DNA of 33,903 bases from positions 1 to 33,903 of the forward strand of contig NZ_CACVCH010000062.1 of assembly GCF_902729425.1 (NCBI RefSeq). The letters run 5' to 3'. The position numbers and the translations under genes were made by a program. Below the pieces are notes generated by a model. It was not told the DNA's origin. It did not search any database and worked only from the letters and a program-made list of their open reading frames with translations. This DNA comes from Magnetospirillum sp. SS-4 (lineage in GTDB: Bacteria; Pseudomonadota; Alphaproteobacteria; Rhodospirillales; Magnetospirillaceae). This document shows positions 3,197 to 18,459 of the stretch, in pieces. How positions within the stretch are numbered: position 1 is the stretch's first letter; each line of letters begins with the position of its first letter.

Positions 3197-4384
3197 GTGA
3201 CAGAACCAGCCCGCACGTCCTGGCCCGCCACCATCCTGGCGGTGGGCGCCGGAATCGTCGCCGCCTTCCAGGTGGGCAAGGCCCCCATCGCCTTGCCGTT
3301 CATTCGCGACGAGATCGGCCTCAGCCTCACCCAGGCCTCGTGGATCCTGTCCATCTTCGCCCTGCTGGGCGCCACCGCCGGCGCCGCCGCCGGCAGCATC
3401 GTCACCCGGATGGGCGCCCGGCCGATGTTGCCCGCCGGCCTCATCATCCTGGCCGCCGCCAGCCTGGCGGGCGCCTTCGCCACCGACCTCGCCTCCCTGC
3501 TGGTCAGCCGCGCCATCGAGGGAATCGGCTTCATGCTGGTGGTGATCTCGGCCCCCGCCCTGATCACCCTGCTGACCCGGACCGCCGACCGTCAGACCGC
3601 CTTCGGCCTGTGGGGCAGCTTCATGCCGTTCGGAGTGGCCCTGTCCATGACGGCGGCGCCGCTGCTGCCCATGATCGGCTGGCGGGGCCTGTGGGGAGGA
3701 ATGGCGGTGCTGCTGGCGCTCTATGCCGTGCTGATCCATCGGCGCATGCCGAAGCCGCCGCCGCCGCCGGCCAGCGAGGACGACCATCCTCTGCGCGACA
3801 TCGCGGCCACCATTACCGCCCCCGGCCCGCTGGTGCTGGCCGGCATCTTCATCCCCTATTCCGCCGCCTACGCCGTCCTGGCCGGGTTCCTGCCGACCCT
3901 GCTGATCGAACGCATGGACGTTTCCCCCGGCACCGCCGGCCTGATGACCGCCCTGGCCGCCGCTTTCAACATCATCGGCAATATCGCCACCGGCCCGCTG
4001 CTGCGCCTGGGGGCCAGCCGCTGGGCCATCCTGGCCGCGGCCGGCCTGACGGTGGCGGTGGTGCTGGCCGGCATCTTCGCCCCAGGCACGCCGGTTTTGC
4101 TGGCCTATGGGCTGTGCATGGTGTTCTTCACCGTCGGCGGCCTGGTGCCGGGCTGCCTGCTGGGGGGGGCCTCGATCTACACCGCCGACCGGCGCCTGGT
4201 TCCGGTGACGCTGGGTCTGCTGATGCAGGGCAGCAATCTCGGCCTGCTGCTGGGACCGGTGGCGGTCGGCGCCGCCGTGGCCGCCACCGGCGGCTGGTGG
4301 GCGGCCGCCGCGGTGCTGGTGCCGGCGGCTCTCGCCGGCCTGGGACTGGTGTTGGTCTTGCGCCGGATGGGCAAGGAGTCTTAA
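3197..4384 (+). CDS. MFS transporter
   Basis: A 395-residue protein of about twelve hydrophobic segments, the usual size and layout of the major facilitator superfamily. Between segments 2 and 3 is a G-x-x-x-x-R-x-G-A-R-P loop (GSIVTRMGARPM), the recognisable MFS motif A region. A cytoplasmic Pro-rich central loop (RRMPKPPPPPASEDD) separates the two six-helix halves. The start is uncertain: GTG 3197 precedes the first membrane segment at a good distance, but no clear ribosome site is visible and the frame is open well upstream. The substrate is unknown. It ends twelve bases before the dehydrogenase gene, suggesting a two-gene unit, so lactate, glycolate or another organic acid is a reasonable guess. 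Confidence 0.85.
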   Translation: MTEPARTSWPATILAVGAGIVAAFQVGKAPIALPFIRDEIGLSLTQASWILSIFALLGATAGAAAGSIVTRMGARPMLPAGLIILAAASLAGAFATDLASLLVSRAIEGIGFMLVVISAPALITLLTRTADRQTAFGLWGSFMPFGVALSMTAAPLLPMIGWRGLWGGMAVLLALYAVLIHRRMPKPPPPPASEDDHPLRDIAATITAPGPLVLAGIFIPYSAAYAVLAGFLPTLLIERMDVSPGTAGLMTALAAAFNIIGNIATGPLLRLGASRWAILAAAGLTVAVVLAGIFAPGTPVLLAYGLCMVFFTVGGLVPGCLLGGASIYTADRRLVPVTLGLLMQGSNLGLLLGPVAVGAAVAATGGWWAAAAVLVPAALAGLGLVLVLRRMGKES

Positions 4385-4395
4385 GCTTTCCCATC

Positions 4396-5766
4396 ATGAC
4401 GCTGCCCCCCGCCCTGCTCGACCAGCTTGCCGCGATTTTTGGCGACCGCCTGTCCACCGCCCCGGCGGTGCGCGAGCATCACGGCAAGGATGAAAGCCAC
4501 TTCCCCCCCTGCCCGCCCGACGCGGTGGTGTTCGCCCTGTCCACCGCCGACGTGGTCGGGGCGGTCAAGGCCTGCGCCGCCCATCTCGTGCCGGTGATCG
4601 CGTTCGGGACGGGAACCTCGCTGGAAGGCCACGTCGCCGCGCTCAAGGGGGGTGTCTGCATCGATGTGGCCGGGATGAATTCCATCTTGTCGGTGCGGCC
4701 CGAGGACCTGGACGTCACCATCCAGCCCGGCGTCACCCGCAAGCAACTGAACGAGCATCTGCGCGACAGCGGCCTGTTCTTTCCCATCGATCCCGGCGCC
4801 GACGCCTCGCTGGGCGGCATGGCGGCGACGCGGGCGTCTGGCACCAACGCGGTGCGCTACGGCACCATGCGCGACAACGTGCTGTCGCTGGAGGTGGTGC
4901 TGCCCGACGGCCGCGTCATCCGCACCGCCCGGCGCGCCCGCAAGTCCTCGGCCGGCTACGACCTCACCCGGCTGTTCGTGGGATCGGAGGGGACCCTGGG
5001 CATCATCACCGAGCTGACGCTCCGCCTGCACGGCATTCCCGAGGCGATCTCCGCCGCCACCTGCCCGTTCCCGTCGGTCGAGGCGGCGGTCGAGACCGTC
5101 ATCCTCACCATCCAGTCCGGAATTCCGGTGGCGCGCATCGAGTTCATGGACGAGGTGATGGCCGACGCGGTCAACCGCTATTCCAGGACGTCGCACCGGG
5201 TCGCCCCCACCTTGTTCTTCGAGTTCCACGGCAGCCCGGCCAGCGTGCGCGAACAGGCCGAGCGGGTCGAGGCCATCGCCGCCGAACTGGGGGGAGACGG
5301 CTTCCGGTGGGCCACCGGCGCCGAGGACCGCACCCGGCTGTGGGCGGCCCGCCACAACGCCTATTACGCCGGCGTGGCGCTGCGTCCCGGCTGCCGCGCC
5401 TGGACCACCGACACCTGCGTTCCCATCTCGCGGCTGGCCGAATGCCTGCTGGAGACCAAGGCCGATCTGGCGACCTCGGGCCTGACCTCGGCGGTGGTCG
5501 GCCATGTGGGCGACGGCAACTTCCACGTCATGCTGCTGGTCGATCCCAACCGGCCGGAGGAAATCGCCGAGGCGGAAGCGCTCAACCGCCGCATCGTCCA
5601 CCGCGCCCTGGCCATGGACGGCACCTGCACCGGCGAACACGGAATCGGTCACGGCAAGATGGAATTCCTGGCCGCCGAATTCGGCGACGGACTGGACATC
5701 ATGCGGGCCATCAAGACCGCCATCGATCCGCTGGGGATCATGAATCCGGGAAAGATCGTCGGATAG
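4396..5766 (+). CDS. FAD-linked D-lactate/glycolate-type dehydrogenase
   Basis: A 456-residue flavoprotein of the GlcD/D-lactate dehydrogenase (cytochrome) group, oxidising 2-hydroxy acids and passing electrons to the respiratory chain. The N-terminal FAD-binding (PCMH) domain has VIAFGTGTSLEGH near residue 70, IQPGVTRKQLN, DPGADASLGGMAATRASGTN and GSEGTLGIIT. The C-terminal FAD-oxidase domain has VGHVGDGNFH, the family's metal/substrate His motif, and TGEHGIGHGK close to the end, then IMNPGKIV. The start at 4396 is the first ATG after the MFS stop. It has no GlcE/GlcF partners next to it, which favours a single-subunit D-lactate dehydrogenase (Dld) over glycolate oxidase. The exact substrate is inferred. 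Confidence 0.88.
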   Translation: MTLPPALLDQLAAIFGDRLSTAPAVREHHGKDESHFPPCPPDAVVFALSTADVVGAVKACAAHLVPVIAFGTGTSLEGHVAALKGGVCIDVAGMNSILSVRPEDLDVTIQPGVTRKQLNEHLRDSGLFFPIDPGADASLGGMAATRASGTNAVRYGTMRDNVLSLEVVLPDGRVIRTARRARKSSAGYDLTRLFVGSEGTLGIITELTLRLHGIPEAISAATCPFPSVEAAVETVILTIQSGIPVARIEFMDEVMADAVNRYSRTSHRVAPTLFFEFHGSPASVREQAERVEAIAAELGGDGFRWATGAEDRTRLWAARHNAYYAGVALRPGCRAWTTDTCVPISRLAECLLETKADLATSGLTSAVVGHVGDGNFHVMLLVDPNRPEEIAEAEALNRRIVHRALAMDGTCTGEHGIGHGKMEFLAAEFGDGLDIMRAIKTAIDPLGIMNPGKIVG

Positions 5767-5770
5767 CGGC

Positions 5771-5977
5771 CTATGCCGCCATTCCGGCCGCCGCCGCGCG
5801 GGGAAACACCAGGTCGACCAGATTGTGGGCGATGGCCGGAACCTCGAACGGCAGGGCCGCCATCAGCACCGCCCTGGCGGCGTCGCGCTGTTCCTGCGGA
5901 TCGAGCCCGGCCCGGCGGGCCTCGGCGACCACGCGAAGAACCAGGGCGGCGAGGACGGCTTCCTGAGACATGGCCAT
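5771..5977 (-). CDS. Small protein, paralogue of the 6086-6292 gene, function unknown
   Basis: A 68-residue protein starting at ATG 5977, eight bases after GGGAGG; a longer upstream reading lacks a ribosome site. It shares with its neighbour the pattern GLxxxEQRDAAxAVLxAxxPxxxPxIA, followed by a Val-rich segment ending in P. It is mostly helical with no signal peptide or membrane span. It converges with the dehydrogenase gene, the stops lying four bases apart. No known family is recognised. Confidence 0.65.
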   Translation of the reverse strand: MAMSQEAVLAALVLRVVAEARRAGLDPQEQRDAARAVLMAALPFEVPAIAHNLVDLVFPRAAAAGMAA

Positions 5978-13518: not shown

Positions 13519-16506
13519 CTATCGCTGCCGGGGCGGCGCCAGATGGATGTCGCCCAGATCGGGCAACGGCCGGGACGGTTCCGCCCCCTCCCCGTCGGCT
13601 TCCAGCTTGGCCATGGCGGCCTCGACGGCGGCGGCCACCTCGGCCATCTCGGGATCGAATGGCGGACCGGCCGCGTCCTCGGTCTCCTCCAGCAAGGCGG
13701 CGATGTCGGCGTCGGACATGATGCCGCCGAAGCCCGGTTCCTCCGGATCGGCGTCATCGTTGACCTCTTCCAGCAGCGCCGCGATCTCGGCGTCGGACAT
13801 GGCAGTGGAAAACAGGCCGGTGGACGGCGGGGCGGCGACGCCCTCCTCCAGGTCCTCTCCCGCCTCGACCAGCATCGCCTCCATGTCGGCGTCGGACATG
13901 GCGACGCCGAACAGCGGCGTTCCCTCCGGCTCCCCCTCCAGGTCCTCTCCCGCCTCGGCCAGCATCGCCTCCATGTCGGCGTCGGAAATGGCGACGCCGA
14001 ACAGCGGCGTTCCCTCCGGCTCCTCCTCCAGGTCCTCTCCCGCCTCGGCCAGCATCGCCTCCATGTCGGCATCGGAAATGGCGGTAGCGAACAGCGGCGT
14101 TCCCTCCGGCTCCTCCTCCAGGTCCTCTCCCGCCTCGGCCAGCATCGCCTCCATGTCGGCATCGGAAATGGCGGTAGCGAACAGCGGCGTTCCCTCCGGC
14201 TCCTCCTCCAGGTCCTCTCCCGCCTCGGCCAGCATGGCGTCCATGTCGGTATCGGAAACGACGGTGCCGAAAACCAGCGGCGGCAGCGGCGGCTCGTCCT
14301 CGGCCGTCAATCCGCCCACCGCCTCCATCGCCTCGGCCAGCATCTGGTTCATGTCCTCGTCGCTGAAGCCGGGTTCGAAAGCGGCGGCAAGGGGAGCGGG
14401 CCCAGGCTCCCGCGCGGTGGCGGACGGCATCGACGGAACGCGGCGACGCAGGTGATAGACCGCCTGACGGCCGAAATCCTTGGCCAGCGACAGCACGCCG
14501 ACATATTCGCAGGCGAAGCGTTCCAGGAACTCCTCGTCCCGATTCTGCGCCTCGGAGCGCAGCGCGCTCTGCTCGGCGGTCAGGACCGCGACGAATTGCT
14601 GGGTGGCGTAGACATGCCCGATCACCGTCACCGGTTCCAGCCGGGCGGCGCGGTTGATGTGGCTGCCGTAGAAGTTCTGGCGGCCGCAGATGGGATCGAT
14701 GGCCTGAAACACCGGCCCGGCATGCAGCGAAATCCGCAAGGACAGGGGATGGGGCAGCCGGTCGCGCAGTTCCTCGTCGGCCTCGGCCACCATTTCCTGA
14801 AGGGTCTGGGCGTATTCGGCCATGGGCGAGGCCTTGTCCATCACCGCGAAGATGGCGTCGCCCCAGGTGTTGATGGCGATGGGCTGAACCTCCAGCCGGG
14901 CCATGCCCCGGTTGATGATGCGCAGGAAGTCGAGGAAAACCGGAGTGTGCTCCTCCTTCAGCCTGGAATAGCCGGCGATGTCGCAAAACAACATCGACCG
15001 GATGACGCGGCCCTCGCCCTGCTCGTCGTCGCCGTCCCCATCCATGTCCGGCATGGCGGGAGTGGAATCGCCGGCCAGATCGGGACGCTTTTGCAGCAGC
15101 GCATCCAGGTCGATGATGCGCAGCCGGGAAATATCCTCCCACTGGTCGATGAAGTCGGCGGCGCCGCCGACCAGCGAGCCGGGCATCATGTCCCATACCG
15201 CCAGCAGATAGGGGTCGGTGGACAGGAAGCTGGCCCGAAGCGTCGCCATGCCGTGCAGGCACTGGTTGGCGAACCGGTACAGCATGGAATGGCCGAGGAA
15301 ACGCTCCTCGGTGGCGTAGGTCACGGTGTTGGCCAGCTTCAGCGCGTTTCGGAACCGCATTTCCCAGCGCGAGCCGCCATAACGGACGTTCTCGGCGATG
15401 AAGTCGTCGATGGCGTAGGGCATGACCACATTGACCTCGGCGCCCCGCTCCAGCATCGCCTCGATGAACAGCAGGTCCGAGCCGCAGGCCGCCATGGAAT
15501 AGCCGACCTGCGCCCCCAGTTCGTCCAGGGAATGGGCGATCTCGGCCCGCACCGCGCTTTCCAGTTCGGGCGGAAAGTGCGGTCCCTCGCCGGGACGGTC
15601 CAGTGGATGGCCGGTGAACACCACCACCGTCGGCGGCTTGAGGATATCGAACACGGCCGGCGGCACCGGAATGCCGCCGTCGCGAAGCAGGGCGAGCTGC
15701 TTCAGCGCCGAAACGGTGCTGCCGTAATGAATGCCCTCCAGGGTGCTGGCCCAGGCGAAGGAGGCCAGGGCCTGCTGGGCGTCGCCCAGCAGCAGATGGG
15801 CCTGACCGACGGTGACCAGCAGCTGATGACGCCGTTCCGGCGACAGCGACGGATCGGATTCCGCCGTGCCGACCCGGTCGGCGACGCTGCGGGCCAGATT
15901 TCGCGCCTCGTCGCGATCGCCCAGCAGCCAGGAGGTGACGGCTGCGTCGATGCCGGCGGCGGGCGCCCCGCCGATGTGAAAGGCGCGCAGGAACAGATCG
16001 CGGCAATGTTCGAGATCGCGGGGCAGGCCCGAGGCGATCCAGGCCTCGCGGAATACGCCGGCCAGGGCGGTATAGGTCTCGGCATCGGCATCGGCGACCA
16101 GCTTCTTGCCGCGCACCAGTTCCAGCGATTCGGCCAGTTCGGCCATGATCGCCAGGGTTTCCTTGCCTTCGGGCGCCCCCAGCGCCTCGACCGCCCGCTT
16201 CAGGCTGCCGTGCAGGCGGTGAAACGGTCCCTCGTCGATCAGAATGACGTCGAGCAGCGGCTGCAACAGCCGGCGGGCCTCGTCCACCGCGCCGGTCTGC
16301 GACAGGGCGACGGCGCCGAAGATGGTCAGCTTGAAGCTGTTGGGATATTGTTTCAGCCCTTCGCGCGCCGTGTCGTGCGCCAGGAAATTCTGCCCTTCCT
16401 CAAGCAGATCCCGCGCGATGCGCTCCCAGTCCTCCAGGGTGCGGATCGGGCCTGCCCCCGTACTGATCGGTATGGATTCCGCCAAGATCGGGCGAGCCTT
16501 TCCCAT
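13519..16506 (-). CDS. TPR / SLOG-like / class III nucleotide cyclase protein with acidic repeat tail
   Basis: A 995-residue soluble protein. Residues 25-290 are paired helices of TPR type (AREGLKQYPNSFKLTIFGAVAL; HQLLVTVGQAHLLLGDAQQA). Residues 293-380 resemble a SLOG/LOG Rossmann nucleotide-binding domain: VVVFTGHPLDRPG, YSMAACGSDLLFIEAMLERGAEV and VVMPY. Residues 500-645 are a class III cyclase domain: metal Asp509 in LFCDIAGYS, Asp550 in NTWGDAIFAV, and the transition-state pair Asn618/Arg622 in HINRAARLEP. It is probably active, but ATP versus GTP is not resolved. Residues 710-945 are an acidic tail with eight copies of S-D-x-D/E-M/I-x-x-M/L-L. No transmembrane segment is seen. It converges with mltG, stops two bases apart. 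The start is ATG 16506, with a weak ribosome site. Confidence 0.85.
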   Translation of the reverse strand: MGKARPILAESIPISTGAGPIRTLEDWERIARDLLEEGQNFLAHDTAREGLKQYPNSFKLTIFGAVALSQTGAVDEARRLLQPLLDVILIDEGPFHRLHGSLKRAVEALGAPEGKETLAIMAELAESLELVRGKKLVADADAETYTALAGVFREAWIASGLPRDLEHCRDLFLRAFHIGGAPAAGIDAAVTSWLLGDRDEARNLARSVADRVGTAESDPSLSPERRHQLLVTVGQAHLLLGDAQQALASFAWASTLEGIHYGSTVSALKQLALLRDGGIPVPPAVFDILKPPTVVVFTGHPLDRPGEGPHFPPELESAVRAEIAHSLDELGAQVGYSMAACGSDLLFIEAMLERGAEVNVVMPYAIDDFIAENVRYGGSRWEMRFRNALKLANTVTYATEERFLGHSMLYRFANQCLHGMATLRASFLSTDPYLLAVWDMMPGSLVGGAADFIDQWEDISRLRIIDLDALLQKRPDLAGDSTPAMPDMDGDGDDEQGEGRVIRSMLFCDIAGYSRLKEEHTPVFLDFLRIINRGMARLEVQPIAINTWGDAIFAVMDKASPMAEYAQTLQEMVAEADEELRDRLPHPLSLRISLHAGPVFQAIDPICGRQNFYGSHINRAARLEPVTVIGHVYATQQFVAVLTAEQSALRSEAQNRDEEFLERFACEYVGVLSLAKDFGRQAVYHLRRRVPSMPSATAREPGPAPLAAAFEPGFSDEDMNQMLAEAMEAVGGLTAEDEPPLPPLVFGTVVSDTDMDAMLAEAGEDLEEEPEGTPLFATAISDADMEAMLAEAGEDLEEEPEGTPLFATAISDADMEAMLAEAGEDLEEEPEGTPLFGVAISDADMEAMLAEAGEDLEGEPEGTPLFGVAMSDADMEAMLVEAGEDLEEGVAAPPSTGLFSTAMSDAEIAALLEEVNDDADPEEPGFGGIMSDADIAALLEETEDAAGPPFDPEMAEVAAAVEAAMAKLEADGEGAEPSRPLPDLGDIHLAPPRQR
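13912..14271. repeat. Tandem 90-bp repeats in the cyclase gene
   Basis: CAGCGGCGTTCCCTCCGGCT starts at 13912, 14002, 14092 and 14182, an exact 90-bp period (30 codons). The units 14002-14091 and 14092-14181 appear identical base for base, and the flanking ones differ at a few positions. More diverged copies of the encoded motif extend on both sides to about 13700 and 14360. Confidence 0.93.
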
Positions 16507-16747: not shown

Positions 16748-17263
16748 ATGAGCGAAATCTACCCCAGTGAACTGAGCACCGACGACCTGCTGCCCACGTC
16801 CAGCCGCTTCGCCGTCGCCTCGGTGAACGGGGCGGTGGGCAAGGGCGTCAGGGCGAAAATCGGCTTCGAGCGCGGAACCCTGGTCGCCCGCTTCACCGGC
16901 ATCCTGTCCAACCGGGTCCTCCAGCACACGCTTCAGGTCAGCCCCGACACCCACCTCCACGATCCCTATTTCGTGGGAATGATGACCCATTCCTGCTCGC
17001 CCAATTGCGTTCTCGACATGCATCGCCTGGAAATCTGGTCGCTGTCCGACGTGGCGCCGGGCGAATTGCTGACCATCGACTACGCCGTCACCGAGGACGT
17101 CTTGTTCCGGCAGTTTCCCTGTCATTGCGGCTCGTCGCGCTGCCGCAAGTGGATCACCGGCCGGCGCGAGAGGATCAACGAGGCGGGGCTGGCCTACCTG
17201 GCGGGACTGGCCAGCCGCAAGGTCCGCAGCATCGCCTCGCGGACCCGCTGGGGCGCCCGGTGA
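16748..17263 (+). CDS. SET-domain protein (putative protein-lysine methyltransferase)
   Basis: A 171-residue compact SET domain with a post-SET cysteine cluster. THSCSPNC (80-87) corresponds to the S-adenosylmethionine/lysine-channel motif NHSCxPN. ELLTIDY (106-112) is the catalytic-tyrosine motif ExLxxDY. CHCGSSRCRKWITG (125-138) is the zinc-binding post-SET segment, its fourth cysteine probably supplied by Cys83 or Cys87. Small bacterial SET proteins are thought to methylate lysines of proteins; the target here is unknown. Its TGA overlaps the GTG start of the next gene (GTGA), so the two are translationally coupled. ATG 16748 is the first reasonable start; the ribosome site is poor. Confidence 0.87.
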   Translation: MSEIYPSELSTDDLLPTSSRFAVASVNGAVGKGVRAKIGFERGTLVARFTGILSNRVLQHTLQVSPDTHLHDPYFVGMMTHSCSPNCVLDMHRLEIWSLSDVAPGELLTIDYAVTEDVLFRQFPCHCGSSRCRKWITGRRERINEAGLAYLAGLASRKVRSIASRTRWGAR

Positions 17264-18459
17264 TCGGATCCTATCCGACGGTGGCCCGGTTCATCCAGGC
17301 CGAGGCGCCGGATGCCCCGGTCCATCTGCTGCGCCCCCACCGTCTGGCGCGGGCGGCCCGCGACTTCATCGACGGCTTTCCCGGCGACACCTTGTTCGCC
17401 GTCAAGTGCAACGCCCATCCGCTGGTCCTGCGCACCCTGTGGGATGAAGGCATCCGTCATTTCGACGTGGCCTCGCCCGTGGAGATCGGCCGGGTGGCCG
17501 AGACCCTGCCCGGCGCCGCCATGTTCTACCACCATCCCGCCAAGACGCCCGGCCAGATCGCCCTGGCCTGGGACAGGGGGGTGCGCCATTTCGCGGTGGA
17601 CTGCCCCGCCGAGCTGGAAAAGGTGGCGGACCGGACCGGCCCCGCCATGGTTCCGGTGGTGCGCCTCGCCATTCCCAAGGGATCGGGCGCGGTCTACGAC
17701 CTGTCCACCAAGTTCGGCGCCACGCCGGAGGTGTTCATCGCCACCCTCGGCCGCGCCGCCGCCATGGGATTCCGGCCGGCGGTGACCTTTCACGTCGGCT
17801 CGCAATGTCTCGACCCCGCCGCCTTCCGGCTCGGCCTTGGCATGGCGGTGGAATTGACCGGCCGGGCCGGGGTGGCGGTGGAACTGATCGACGTGGGCGG
17901 CGGCTTCCCCGCCTATTACCGCGCCACCCGGGCGCCGCCGCTGGCCGAGTATTTCCGGGTGATCCGGCAGGCTCACGCCGAACTGACCGCCCCCCTGGGA
18001 ATACGGCTGGCCTGCGAGCCCGGCCGCGCCCTGGTGGCCGAGGGCGGCTCGCTTCTGGTTCGCGTCGTCCTGAGAAAGCCCGATGCGGTCCATCTCAACG
18101 ACGGCATCTTTGGCGGGCTGACCGAAACCTATTGGGGCAAGGACGAATTGCTGCTGCCGTTGCGGGTCATCTCGGCCGATGGCTCGCCGCGGACCGGCGC
18201 GCCGCGGGACCTTACCGCCTACGGCCCGACCTGCGACGGCAACGACGTGCTGCCCTGGCCCGTTTCCCTGCCCGACGACACCGTCACGGGCGACTATATC
18301 GAATTCAATCTGATCGGCGCCTATGGCCGCGAGATGGCGGCCAGCTACAACGGCATGCGCTCGGACGCCGTGGCGGTGATCGAAACGGACTTCGCCGGCC
18401 ATCTTTGCGCCGAGGCGATGGAGTCGGGTAGACGAACCCCCCGACTGGAGGTACTGTAA
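17260..18459 (+). CDS. Fold-III PLP-dependent decarboxylase (ornithine/lysine/DAP decarboxylase family)
   Basis: A 399-residue enzyme of the alanine-racemase-fold decarboxylases. The PLP lysine is Lys49 in LFAVKCN. HVGSQC (His178 stacks on PLP), VGGGFP (phosphate loop) and EPGR (253-256) follow in order. The partner-subunit pair Cys325-Asp326 lies in GPTCDGNDVL, as in ornithine decarboxylases. DLSTKFG near residue 147 also matches the ODC branch. Ornithine or lysine decarboxylation to a polyamine is the likeliest reaction, but the GND context and the unusual partner leave other substrates open. The start is GTG 17260, overlapping the SET stop. An ATG-started alternative would remove part of the N-terminal domain. 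Confidence 0.88.
   Translation: MIGSYPTVARFIQAEAPDAPVHLLRPHRLARAARDFIDGFPGDTLFAVKCNAHPLVLRTLWDEGIRHFDVASPVEIGRVAETLPGAAMFYHHPAKTPGQIALAWDRGVRHFAVDCPAELEKVADRTGPAMVPVVRLAIPKGSGAVYDLSTKFGATPEVFIATLGRAAAMGFRPAVTFHVGSQCLDPAAFRLGLGMAVELTGRAGVAVELIDVGGGFPAYYRATRAPPLAEYFRVIRQAHAELTAPLGIRLACEPGRALVAEGGSLLVRVVLRKPDAVHLNDGIFGGLTETYWGKDELLLPLRVISADGSPRTGAPRDLTAYGPTCDGNDVLPWPVSLPDDTVTGDYIEFNLIGAYGREMAASYNGMRSDAVAVIETDFAGHLCAEAMESGRRTPRLEVL

Follow-up and report, generated by a model that had tools for sequence, protein, structure and literature searches.

Why should a bacterial nucleotide cyclase end in a string of repeated short peptides, and what could they hold? The question is raised by a gene on a 33,903-nucleotide stretch of Magnetospirillum sp. 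SS-4 DNA (contig NZ_CACVCH010000062.1, positions 1 to 33,903; the window). Positions 13519..16506 of its minus strand encode, as judged from the open reading frame (ORF), Pfam and homologs, a 995-residue TPR/class III nucleotide cyclase protein with a docking-helix tail. A sequence-only reading of this DNA had proposed that the tail binds CheY in the manner of the flagellar switch protein FliM. Our analysis points instead to a tail that is probably a lineage-specific multivalent docking array with a code of its own, acting on a putative partner.

A motif array in the cyclase tail

The acidic tail (residues 690-995; 13522..14439, minus strand) is predicted by the AlphaFold2 (AF2) model to be disordered between its motifs, and from residue 680 on consists of 26% Asp and Glu and 2.8% Lys and Arg. 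Eight motifs were found exactly where the sequence-only reading had placed them, at residues 715, 751, 781, 811, 841, 871, 904 and 931 (window 13690-14364, minus strand). These are motif 1, SDEDMNQML (14338..14364; AF2 helix 716-730); motif 2, SDTDMDAML (14230..14256; helix 752-760); motifs 3 to 6, all SDADMEAML (14140..14166, 14050..14076, 13960..13986 and 13870..13896; helices 782-792, 812-822, 842-851 and 872-881); motif 7, SDAEIAALL (13771..13797; helix 905-914); and motif 8, SDADIAALL (13690..13716; helix 932-943), all on the minus strand. Peptide ISDADMEAMLAEAGED is one bead of this string, and MSDADIAALLEETED one bead of the I-type. The consensus written in that reading, S-D-A-[DE]-[MI]-x-A-[ML]-L, is exact in six of the eight copies, and those at 715 and 751 fit only the looser form S-D-x-[DE]-[MIL]-x-x-[MLI]-L. 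When the 306-residue tail was shuffled 20,000 times, matches to the loose pattern averaged 0.0009, with a maximum of 1, and chance or a translation artefact was rejected as the origin of the array.

In the AF2 model one helix begins right after each of the eight motif Ser residues, the tail being otherwise disordered. Seven of the eight predicted helices have a stretch with a predicted local confidence (pLDDT) of at least 50, and the linkers lie below 50. We presume that the motif Ser acts as a helix N-cap together with an acidic capping residue, which fits these predicted helices. A further AF2 helix, of a type other than the motif helices, follows near the C-terminus (residues 952-973; DPEMAEVAAAVEAAMAKLEAD; 13588..13653, minus strand). 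By eye, tails of orthologs from other genera possibly have a corresponding helix near their end.

The DNA encoding motifs 2-6 was recovered by a repeat search as a 90-bp tandem repeat (13842..14258; 4.6 copies, 96% matches), and the units that begin at motifs 2 to 5 share 80-87 of their 90 bases. The array is therefore partly recent and its eight copies are not all independent, so that conservation in the 14 orthologs described below is the stronger evidence.

A pattern search of the whole genome gave six matches in the cyclase gene and one match at each of six other places (reversed control, 0). By eye, without a family search, the latter fall in a GTPase, an SppA-like protein, an SMC-like protein, an Hsp70, an aldehyde dehydrogenase and one doubtful ORF. 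As all six are single, a second repeated array elsewhere in the genome was rejected. A sequence search of the Protein Data Bank (PDB) using one repeat unit found nothing.

Conservation and spread of the array

Matches to the cyclase were found in 36 of 99 genomes of relatives, our own included, and at 23 GTDB loci (Paramagnetospirillum, Phaeospirillum and Magnetospirillum among others). Within the genus, 14 of 17 genomes have it, again counting our own, with no match in G004, G006 and G015. All 14 genus orthologs carry the array, in 5-12 copies each and 120 in total; one of them (L034) ends at a contig end. With the motif Ser as position 0, this count required Asp, Glu or Asn at +1, and matches ending in VA, which belong to the C-terminal helix, were removed. 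That the cyclase carries short motifs of docking type in a multivalent array is supported; the motifs stay while the linkers vary in length and letters among species. A motif spacing of about 30 residues is peculiar to our copy, the spacing ranging from about 20 to 56 across the 12 proteins measured.

Among 110 copies collected with +1 and +5 left free, Ser stands at 0 in 108, Asp at +1 in 101 and Ala at +6 in 100, and the acid that the pattern requires at +3 is Asp in 99. At -1, likewise left free, all 120 copies of the larger set have a hydrophobic residue. Because the search patterns demanded hydrophobic residues at +4, +7 and +8, these positions cannot be counted independently; Leu occupies +8 in 108 of the 120 copies. 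The motif Ser is encoded by TCN codons in 103 of 120 copies and by AGY codons in 17. The ratio of nonsynonymous to synonymous differences (pN/pS), which is near saturation and of use solely as a comparison, was 0.56 for the core and 0.49 for +9/+10, as against 0.84 for -1, 1.20 upstream and 0.90 for +11 to +16. The use of both Ser codon families and the lower pN/pS of the core indicate that the peptide is what is kept, and the array has the appearance of a docking array under selection rather than of filler.

Core identity to the orthologs of other genera lies mostly at 65-75%, with one ortholog at 42%. These tail-less orthologs (Magnetospirillum and other genera of the family) have the TPR, middle and cyclase regions in common with our protein, but end in a short tail, with WPG and one residue at the end in 15 of 18 readable tails. 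None of the 18 distinct readable tails carries the array; the tails of L013 and L009 were shortened in this comparison, where the anchor was missing. Used as a protein query against 385 genomes of the class, with at most six candidates per genome scored in the first pass, our tail found itself and seven weak matches, mostly ankyrin repeats by eye. None of the seven has the array, and its sharing by the sampled class genomes was rejected. The DNA form of the pattern is repeated in the cyclase contig of every cyclase-bearing genome among the 17 of the genus and occurs as scattered singles elsewhere. The cyclase-less G004, G006 and G015 had 2, 0 and 0 matches, and the reversed control 4 over all 17 genomes. 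Within the genomes searched, the array is restricted to the genus.

A few individual homologs have features of their own. The tail of L011 has a second low-complexity repeat, of the type PIEEESVPVEEEPA, ahead of its motif array. The tail of L028, from another genus, ends with a single similar element, GDDDIARLL. A split between two frames, or an in-frame stop within the matched span, is seen in the homologs L016 (G008), L030/L053 (G054) and L014 (G001), from either a frameshift, a pseudogene or a sequencing error.

Comparison with the FliM and CheZ docking peptides

The contacts of FliM with CheY, as tabulated in PMC3774744 (Table 3), comprise the polar residues Gln8 and Asp12 and the hydrophobic residues L6, I11 and L14, with L15 in the Vibrio model. 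Gln8 touches CheY Val108 N, and Asp12 forms a salt bridge to CheY Lys119. The conserved FliM motif is given as LSQxEIDxLL, and the C. crescentus peptide as ILNQDEIDSLLG (PMC5677366). When Ile57-Asp58 of Caulobacter FliM was changed to Trp-Ala (ID57WA), reversals and the binding of the CheY-like Cle were lost, according to PMC5677366 and PMC7534056; this double change does not isolate the role of the Asp.

The tail keeps the hydrophobic contact register, at -1 (FliM L6), +4 (I11), +7 (L14) and mostly +8 (L15). Gln at +1, the Gln8 position, was found in none of the 110 copies with that position free, the set from which this count was drawn because the 120-copy set required [DEN] there. Asp at +5, the Asp12 position, was found in 4 of the 110, and Q-x-[DE]-I-D in none of the 14 genus orthologs. 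The FliM N-terminal peptide and the tail beads thus have the same length, the same hydrophobic positions (-1/+4/+7/+8), an acid at +3 and a flexible acidic region in common. The tail differs from FliM in having Asp for Gln at +1, in rarely having Asp at +5, in having mostly Asp and not Glu at +3, and in that its motif is repeated many times, at the C-terminus of an enzyme. The C-terminal CheZ peptides of the same genome (TNQADIDALLASFD and ISQAEIDSLFG) are, like the tail, C-terminal, flexible and amphipathic, but each is a single copy with Q and I-D, and the tail has neither. At the level of sequence, the tail truly resembles FliM in its hydrophobic register, whereas at the polar contacts there is no likeness; the hydrogen bond of Gln could, however, also be accepted by an Asp at +1. 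The match to FliM proposed in the sequence-only reading therefore stands for the register and the acidic +3, and falls at the Gln8 and Asp12 positions, where the homologs keep their repeats without the FliM-like residues.

A profile was built from six docking peptides of our own genome, which themselves score 26-31 bits. On this scale our own tail copies reach 3.3-15.1 bits, the highest of the eight being motif 7 (15.1), with motif 8 at 14.2. The median tail copy, at about 7.7 bits, is in the top 0.04% of 180,074 background 10-mers, and the best ortholog copy, MSDDEIDALL (L011, genome G005), reaches 22.0 bits. The scoring took 102 copies from 12 of the 14 proteins, including a few C-terminal helix matches. 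The background consisted of longest ORFs, among which were some shadow frames and also two of the docking proteins, the latter ranking first.

The canonical code and CheY proteins in the genome

Our genome writes the canonical code as Q-x-[DE]-I-D-[SA]-L-[LF], and its FliM has VLNQDEIDSLLG. FliM is present in all 17 genus genomes, and the form with Q and I-D in 44 of 48 FliM loci examined (18 of the genus and the 30 best of the order; 47 of the 48 matched, three of them in another segment, and the 48th, L083, contains the C-terminal half only). A search of our own genome for Q-x-[DE]-I-D-x-L-L gave six matches (reversed control, 0 and 1): FliM, two CheZ C-termini, a DUF2497 protein (AQDDIDSLF), a small protein ending in AQVEIDSLLA and one frame judged non-coding.

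A CheY encoded beside a CheZ, near FliM, aligns to E. coli CheY (E 6.5e-44 for the best chain). In what we take to be E. coli numbering, it keeps Lys119, Tyr106 and Val108, and positions 90, 95, 99 and 122 are Ser, Val, Lys and Ser (vs Ala90, Ile95, Ala99 and Lys122). The genome has 136 receiver-domain matches. Among short receiver loci, 19 of 20 were aligned; their FliM-binding faces are diverse, with Lys at 119 in 2 of the 19. Since these faces differ widely, a receiver with another specificity is possible.

Several other proteins carry elements of the canonical type. In the DUF2497 protein L121 (G000:C59:10423-10445), whose domain we take to be that of PopZ, the canonical CheY-docking-like motif SFAQDDIDSLFDS stands ahead of an acidic spacer. 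A docking-like motif was seen in 6 of 28 readable DUF2497 ORFs in the order (L156, L162, L170-L173; 30 loci, two without a readable ORF). Such a protein would be a candidate polar hub with a putative receiver-docking site. The small protein (L120, 1497-2060, minus strand; G000:C57:23910-23932) has no Pfam family, its end AQVEIDSLLA is CheZ-tail-like, and a LuxR-type response regulator ORF lies about 2 kb beyond it. At a third CheZ-like match, L115 (G000:C78:136142-136423), the ORF has the looser docking-like LGQDAIDKLF. FliM proteins of the genus have further short elements upstream of the CheY site (EWAAMAGDG and EWEAMLGAGD in our own), and EWEAMLGAGD (L001) bears a vague likeness to the tail beads DMEAMLAEAGED.

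What the array may bind

We propose that the tail would act as a flexible acidic chain with 5-12 beads, eight in our protein, of the form hydrophobic-S-D-x-[D/E]-[I/L/M]-x-A-[L/M/I]-L-x-E. A short amphipathic helix would form at each bead, N-capped by the Ser, with the acid at +3 completing a capping box. The hydrophobic face of each helix (-1, +4, +7, +8) would then take up a single copy of the partner. Through avidity, the array could gather many copies of a weakly binding partner at the cyclase, or tie the cyclase to a multi-subunit structure, and its copy number may be tuned through recombination between repeats. Going by the motif, the partner is most likely something other than a CheY that reads the FliM/CheZ code. 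The likeliest candidate classes would be a receiver-like protein whose specificity has changed, a TPR or helical hub protein, or a second cyclase molecule.

Several points weigh against a docking array. The AF2 model was made from 20 sequences and has a mean pLDDT of 54, with the helix of motif 2 nearly all below 50, and +8 is Ser or Ala in 12 of 120 copies. It is also common for an amphipathic helix to carry an S-x-x-[DE] capping box, a design that could serve self-association or solubility.

The proposal of the sequence-only reading was that the beads are FliM-like CheY docking sites, and the tail a CheY sponge or a rival of FliM, linking a nucleotide messenger to motility. We regard it as unlikely. 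Length, hydrophobic register, the acidic +3 and the Ser at 0 are those of FliM and LSQxEIDxLL, the L011 copy reaches 22.0 bits and the last two copies of our own tail 14-15 bits in the docking profile, against 26-31 for the source peptides, the median copy stands far up the background, and FliM itself occurs throughout the genus. The proposal was given slightly more weight by MCP-type genes beside tail-less cyclases: of the 17 distinct tail-less loci that include upstream DNA, 6 have such a gene immediately before the cyclase, in the same orientation. This chemoreceptor neighbor, however, goes with the tail-less enzymes: in the 1 to 6 kb covered, no MCP-type gene was found upstream in the 13 array loci with upstream DNA. 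Further points against CheY docking are the scarcity of the two polar contact residues in the tails, the presence of the canonical code elsewhere in the genome and its absence from all 14 cyclase proteins. In addition, the CheY near FliM retains Lys119, the partner of Asp12, though positions 90, 95, 99 and 122 have changed, and the Caulobacter ID57WA change, which as described does not separate out the Asp, hits the Ile-Asp pair of FliM (PMC5677366, PMC7534056).

A bolder alternative is that the array is a second, genus-specific receiver-docking code, with SDxD-phi-x-A-phi-L in place of SQxEIDxLL. The cyclase, whose gene in some relatives follows immediately after that of a chemoreceptor, would then collect up to a dozen copies of one dedicated CheY-like protein insulated from FliM, coupling receptor signaling to cyclic-nucleotide output by avidity. 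We hold this to be quite unlikely.

Another alternative is that the beads bind the TPR or cyclase region of the same protein, or one another, such that the cyclase clusters or is held inactive. The TPR-like domain of the protein is a common type of peptide receptor, and the chain is acidic and multivalent. The core is, however, found without the array in orthologs of other genera (18 readable tails) and can therefore do without it, and in the monomer AF2 model the confidence of the tail is too low to show docking; we consider this alternative decidedly improbable. Low-complexity expansion via replication slippage, with little function, would suit the recent 90-bp repeat and the variable copy number, but is disfavored as highly improbable by core residues that are fixed while codons vary, by the two Ser codon families and by the diverged linkers.

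A multivalent docking array would be a clear, evolvable case of a bacterial enzyme with beads-on-a-string of one docking motif, seen within our searches in one genus of spirilla, and the sister genera, with the same enzyme minus the array, provide a natural control. Since the canonical CheY-docking code occurs in the same genome as a look-alike differing at both polar contacts, docking specificity is open to direct peptide comparison. The chemoreceptor-cyclase gene pair of some relatives gives a second, independent handle on the purpose of the enzyme.

Domains of the cyclase protein

The N-terminal TPR-like helical region (residues 24-288; 15643..16437, minus strand) is modeled by AF2 as helices, with block pLDDT mostly 67-93. 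Pfam TPR-S scored 24.5 bits, under the curated cut-off of 27.6, and in a Foldseek search the 50 best of 1440 matches were all TPR-type proteins, with low TM-scores. The middle region (residues 290-480; 15067..15639, minus strand) is strongly conserved, as seen in the invariant columns of alignment A1, and a low-pLDDT model gives it strands and helices. Since the Foldseek matches listed were of TPR type only, with low TM-scores, it is left without a fold name.

The class III nucleotide cyclase domain (residues 504-651; 14554..14997, minus strand) was identified by PF00211 (E 1.2e-10) and by matches to cyclases in the PDB, in agreement with the cyclase motifs reported earlier. Asp509, Asp550, Asn618 and Arg622, which make up the metal Asp pair and the active-site Asn and Arg, are all present and are invariant across the 20 rows of alignment A1, our own included; a catalytic domain with these residues places the protein among the class III cyclases. 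Positions 546 and 611 are presumably purine-selecting, with Lys/Asp in adenylate cyclases and Glu/Cys in guanylate cyclases. Read on the alignment with PDB cyclases, the adenylate cyclase Lys/Asp pair is absent from our protein, which has Asn546/Asn611 (codons 14869-14871 and 14674-14676). These two residues, too, are the same in all 20 rows, and the sequence therefore does not point to a particular substrate. Rv1625c-type adenylate cyclase and soluble guanylate cyclase (PF00211) have the metal Asp pair and the active-site Asn and Arg in common with our protein, which differs from them in its Asn/Asn pair, TPR-like N-terminus and docking tail.

Neither of the FliM family domains PF02154 and PF01052 was found in the cyclase protein at E 0.1. 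The PADLOC models, which cover the cyclase systems of anti-phage defence, gave no matching family at E 0.1, and identity with a listed defence cyclase was rejected. A literature search found nothing joining an adenylate cyclase with a FliM-like motif and CheY, and nothing on this protein among the matches listed; the cyclase presented in PMC4439547 is a different one, of CHASE2 type.

Gene neighborhood

The divergent upstream neighbor of the cyclase gene encodes a SET-domain protein (16748..17263, plus strand; Pfam), homologs of which lie beside the cyclase in several orthologous loci. It is overlapped by the ORF of a pyridoxal phosphate (PLP)-dependent decarboxylase (17005..18459, plus strand; PF02784), the true start of which is probably later. 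A YceG-like gene lies downstream of the cyclase in the window, and Pfam annotation of the neighbors showed no chemotaxis gene adjoining the cyclase there. SET and decarboxylase homologs stand beside the cyclase in array and tail-less loci alike (e.g. L032, L037, L038, L044, L045, L049, L051). In the array locus L033, the neighbors encode a transporter, an HI0933-like flavoprotein, a thioesterase and gyrase B (5 of 9 flank ORFs scanned).

In the tail-less locus L046, a chemoreceptor with MCPsignal, HAMP and ligand-binding domains is encoded directly upstream on the same strand (4220-5932, plus strand; 4 of 8 flank ORFs scanned). The other MCP-type neighbors were found by homology to this chemoreceptor over 54 sources, with a Pfam check on L046 alone. 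The six loci with such a gene directly upstream are L022, L046, L047, L048, L050 and L052, with a gap of about 40-65 bp between the MCP-type ORF and the cyclase ORF. They are close relatives and may reflect one event; gene order makes a receptor-cyclase operon possible in these six. The presence of the MCP-type gene in 6 of the 17 tail-less loci makes it possible that the core enzyme is linked to chemotaxis, but says nothing for such a link of the array. In L053 an MCP-type gene lies about 1.2 kb upstream of the cyclase, and L028, L044 and L051 have one downstream.

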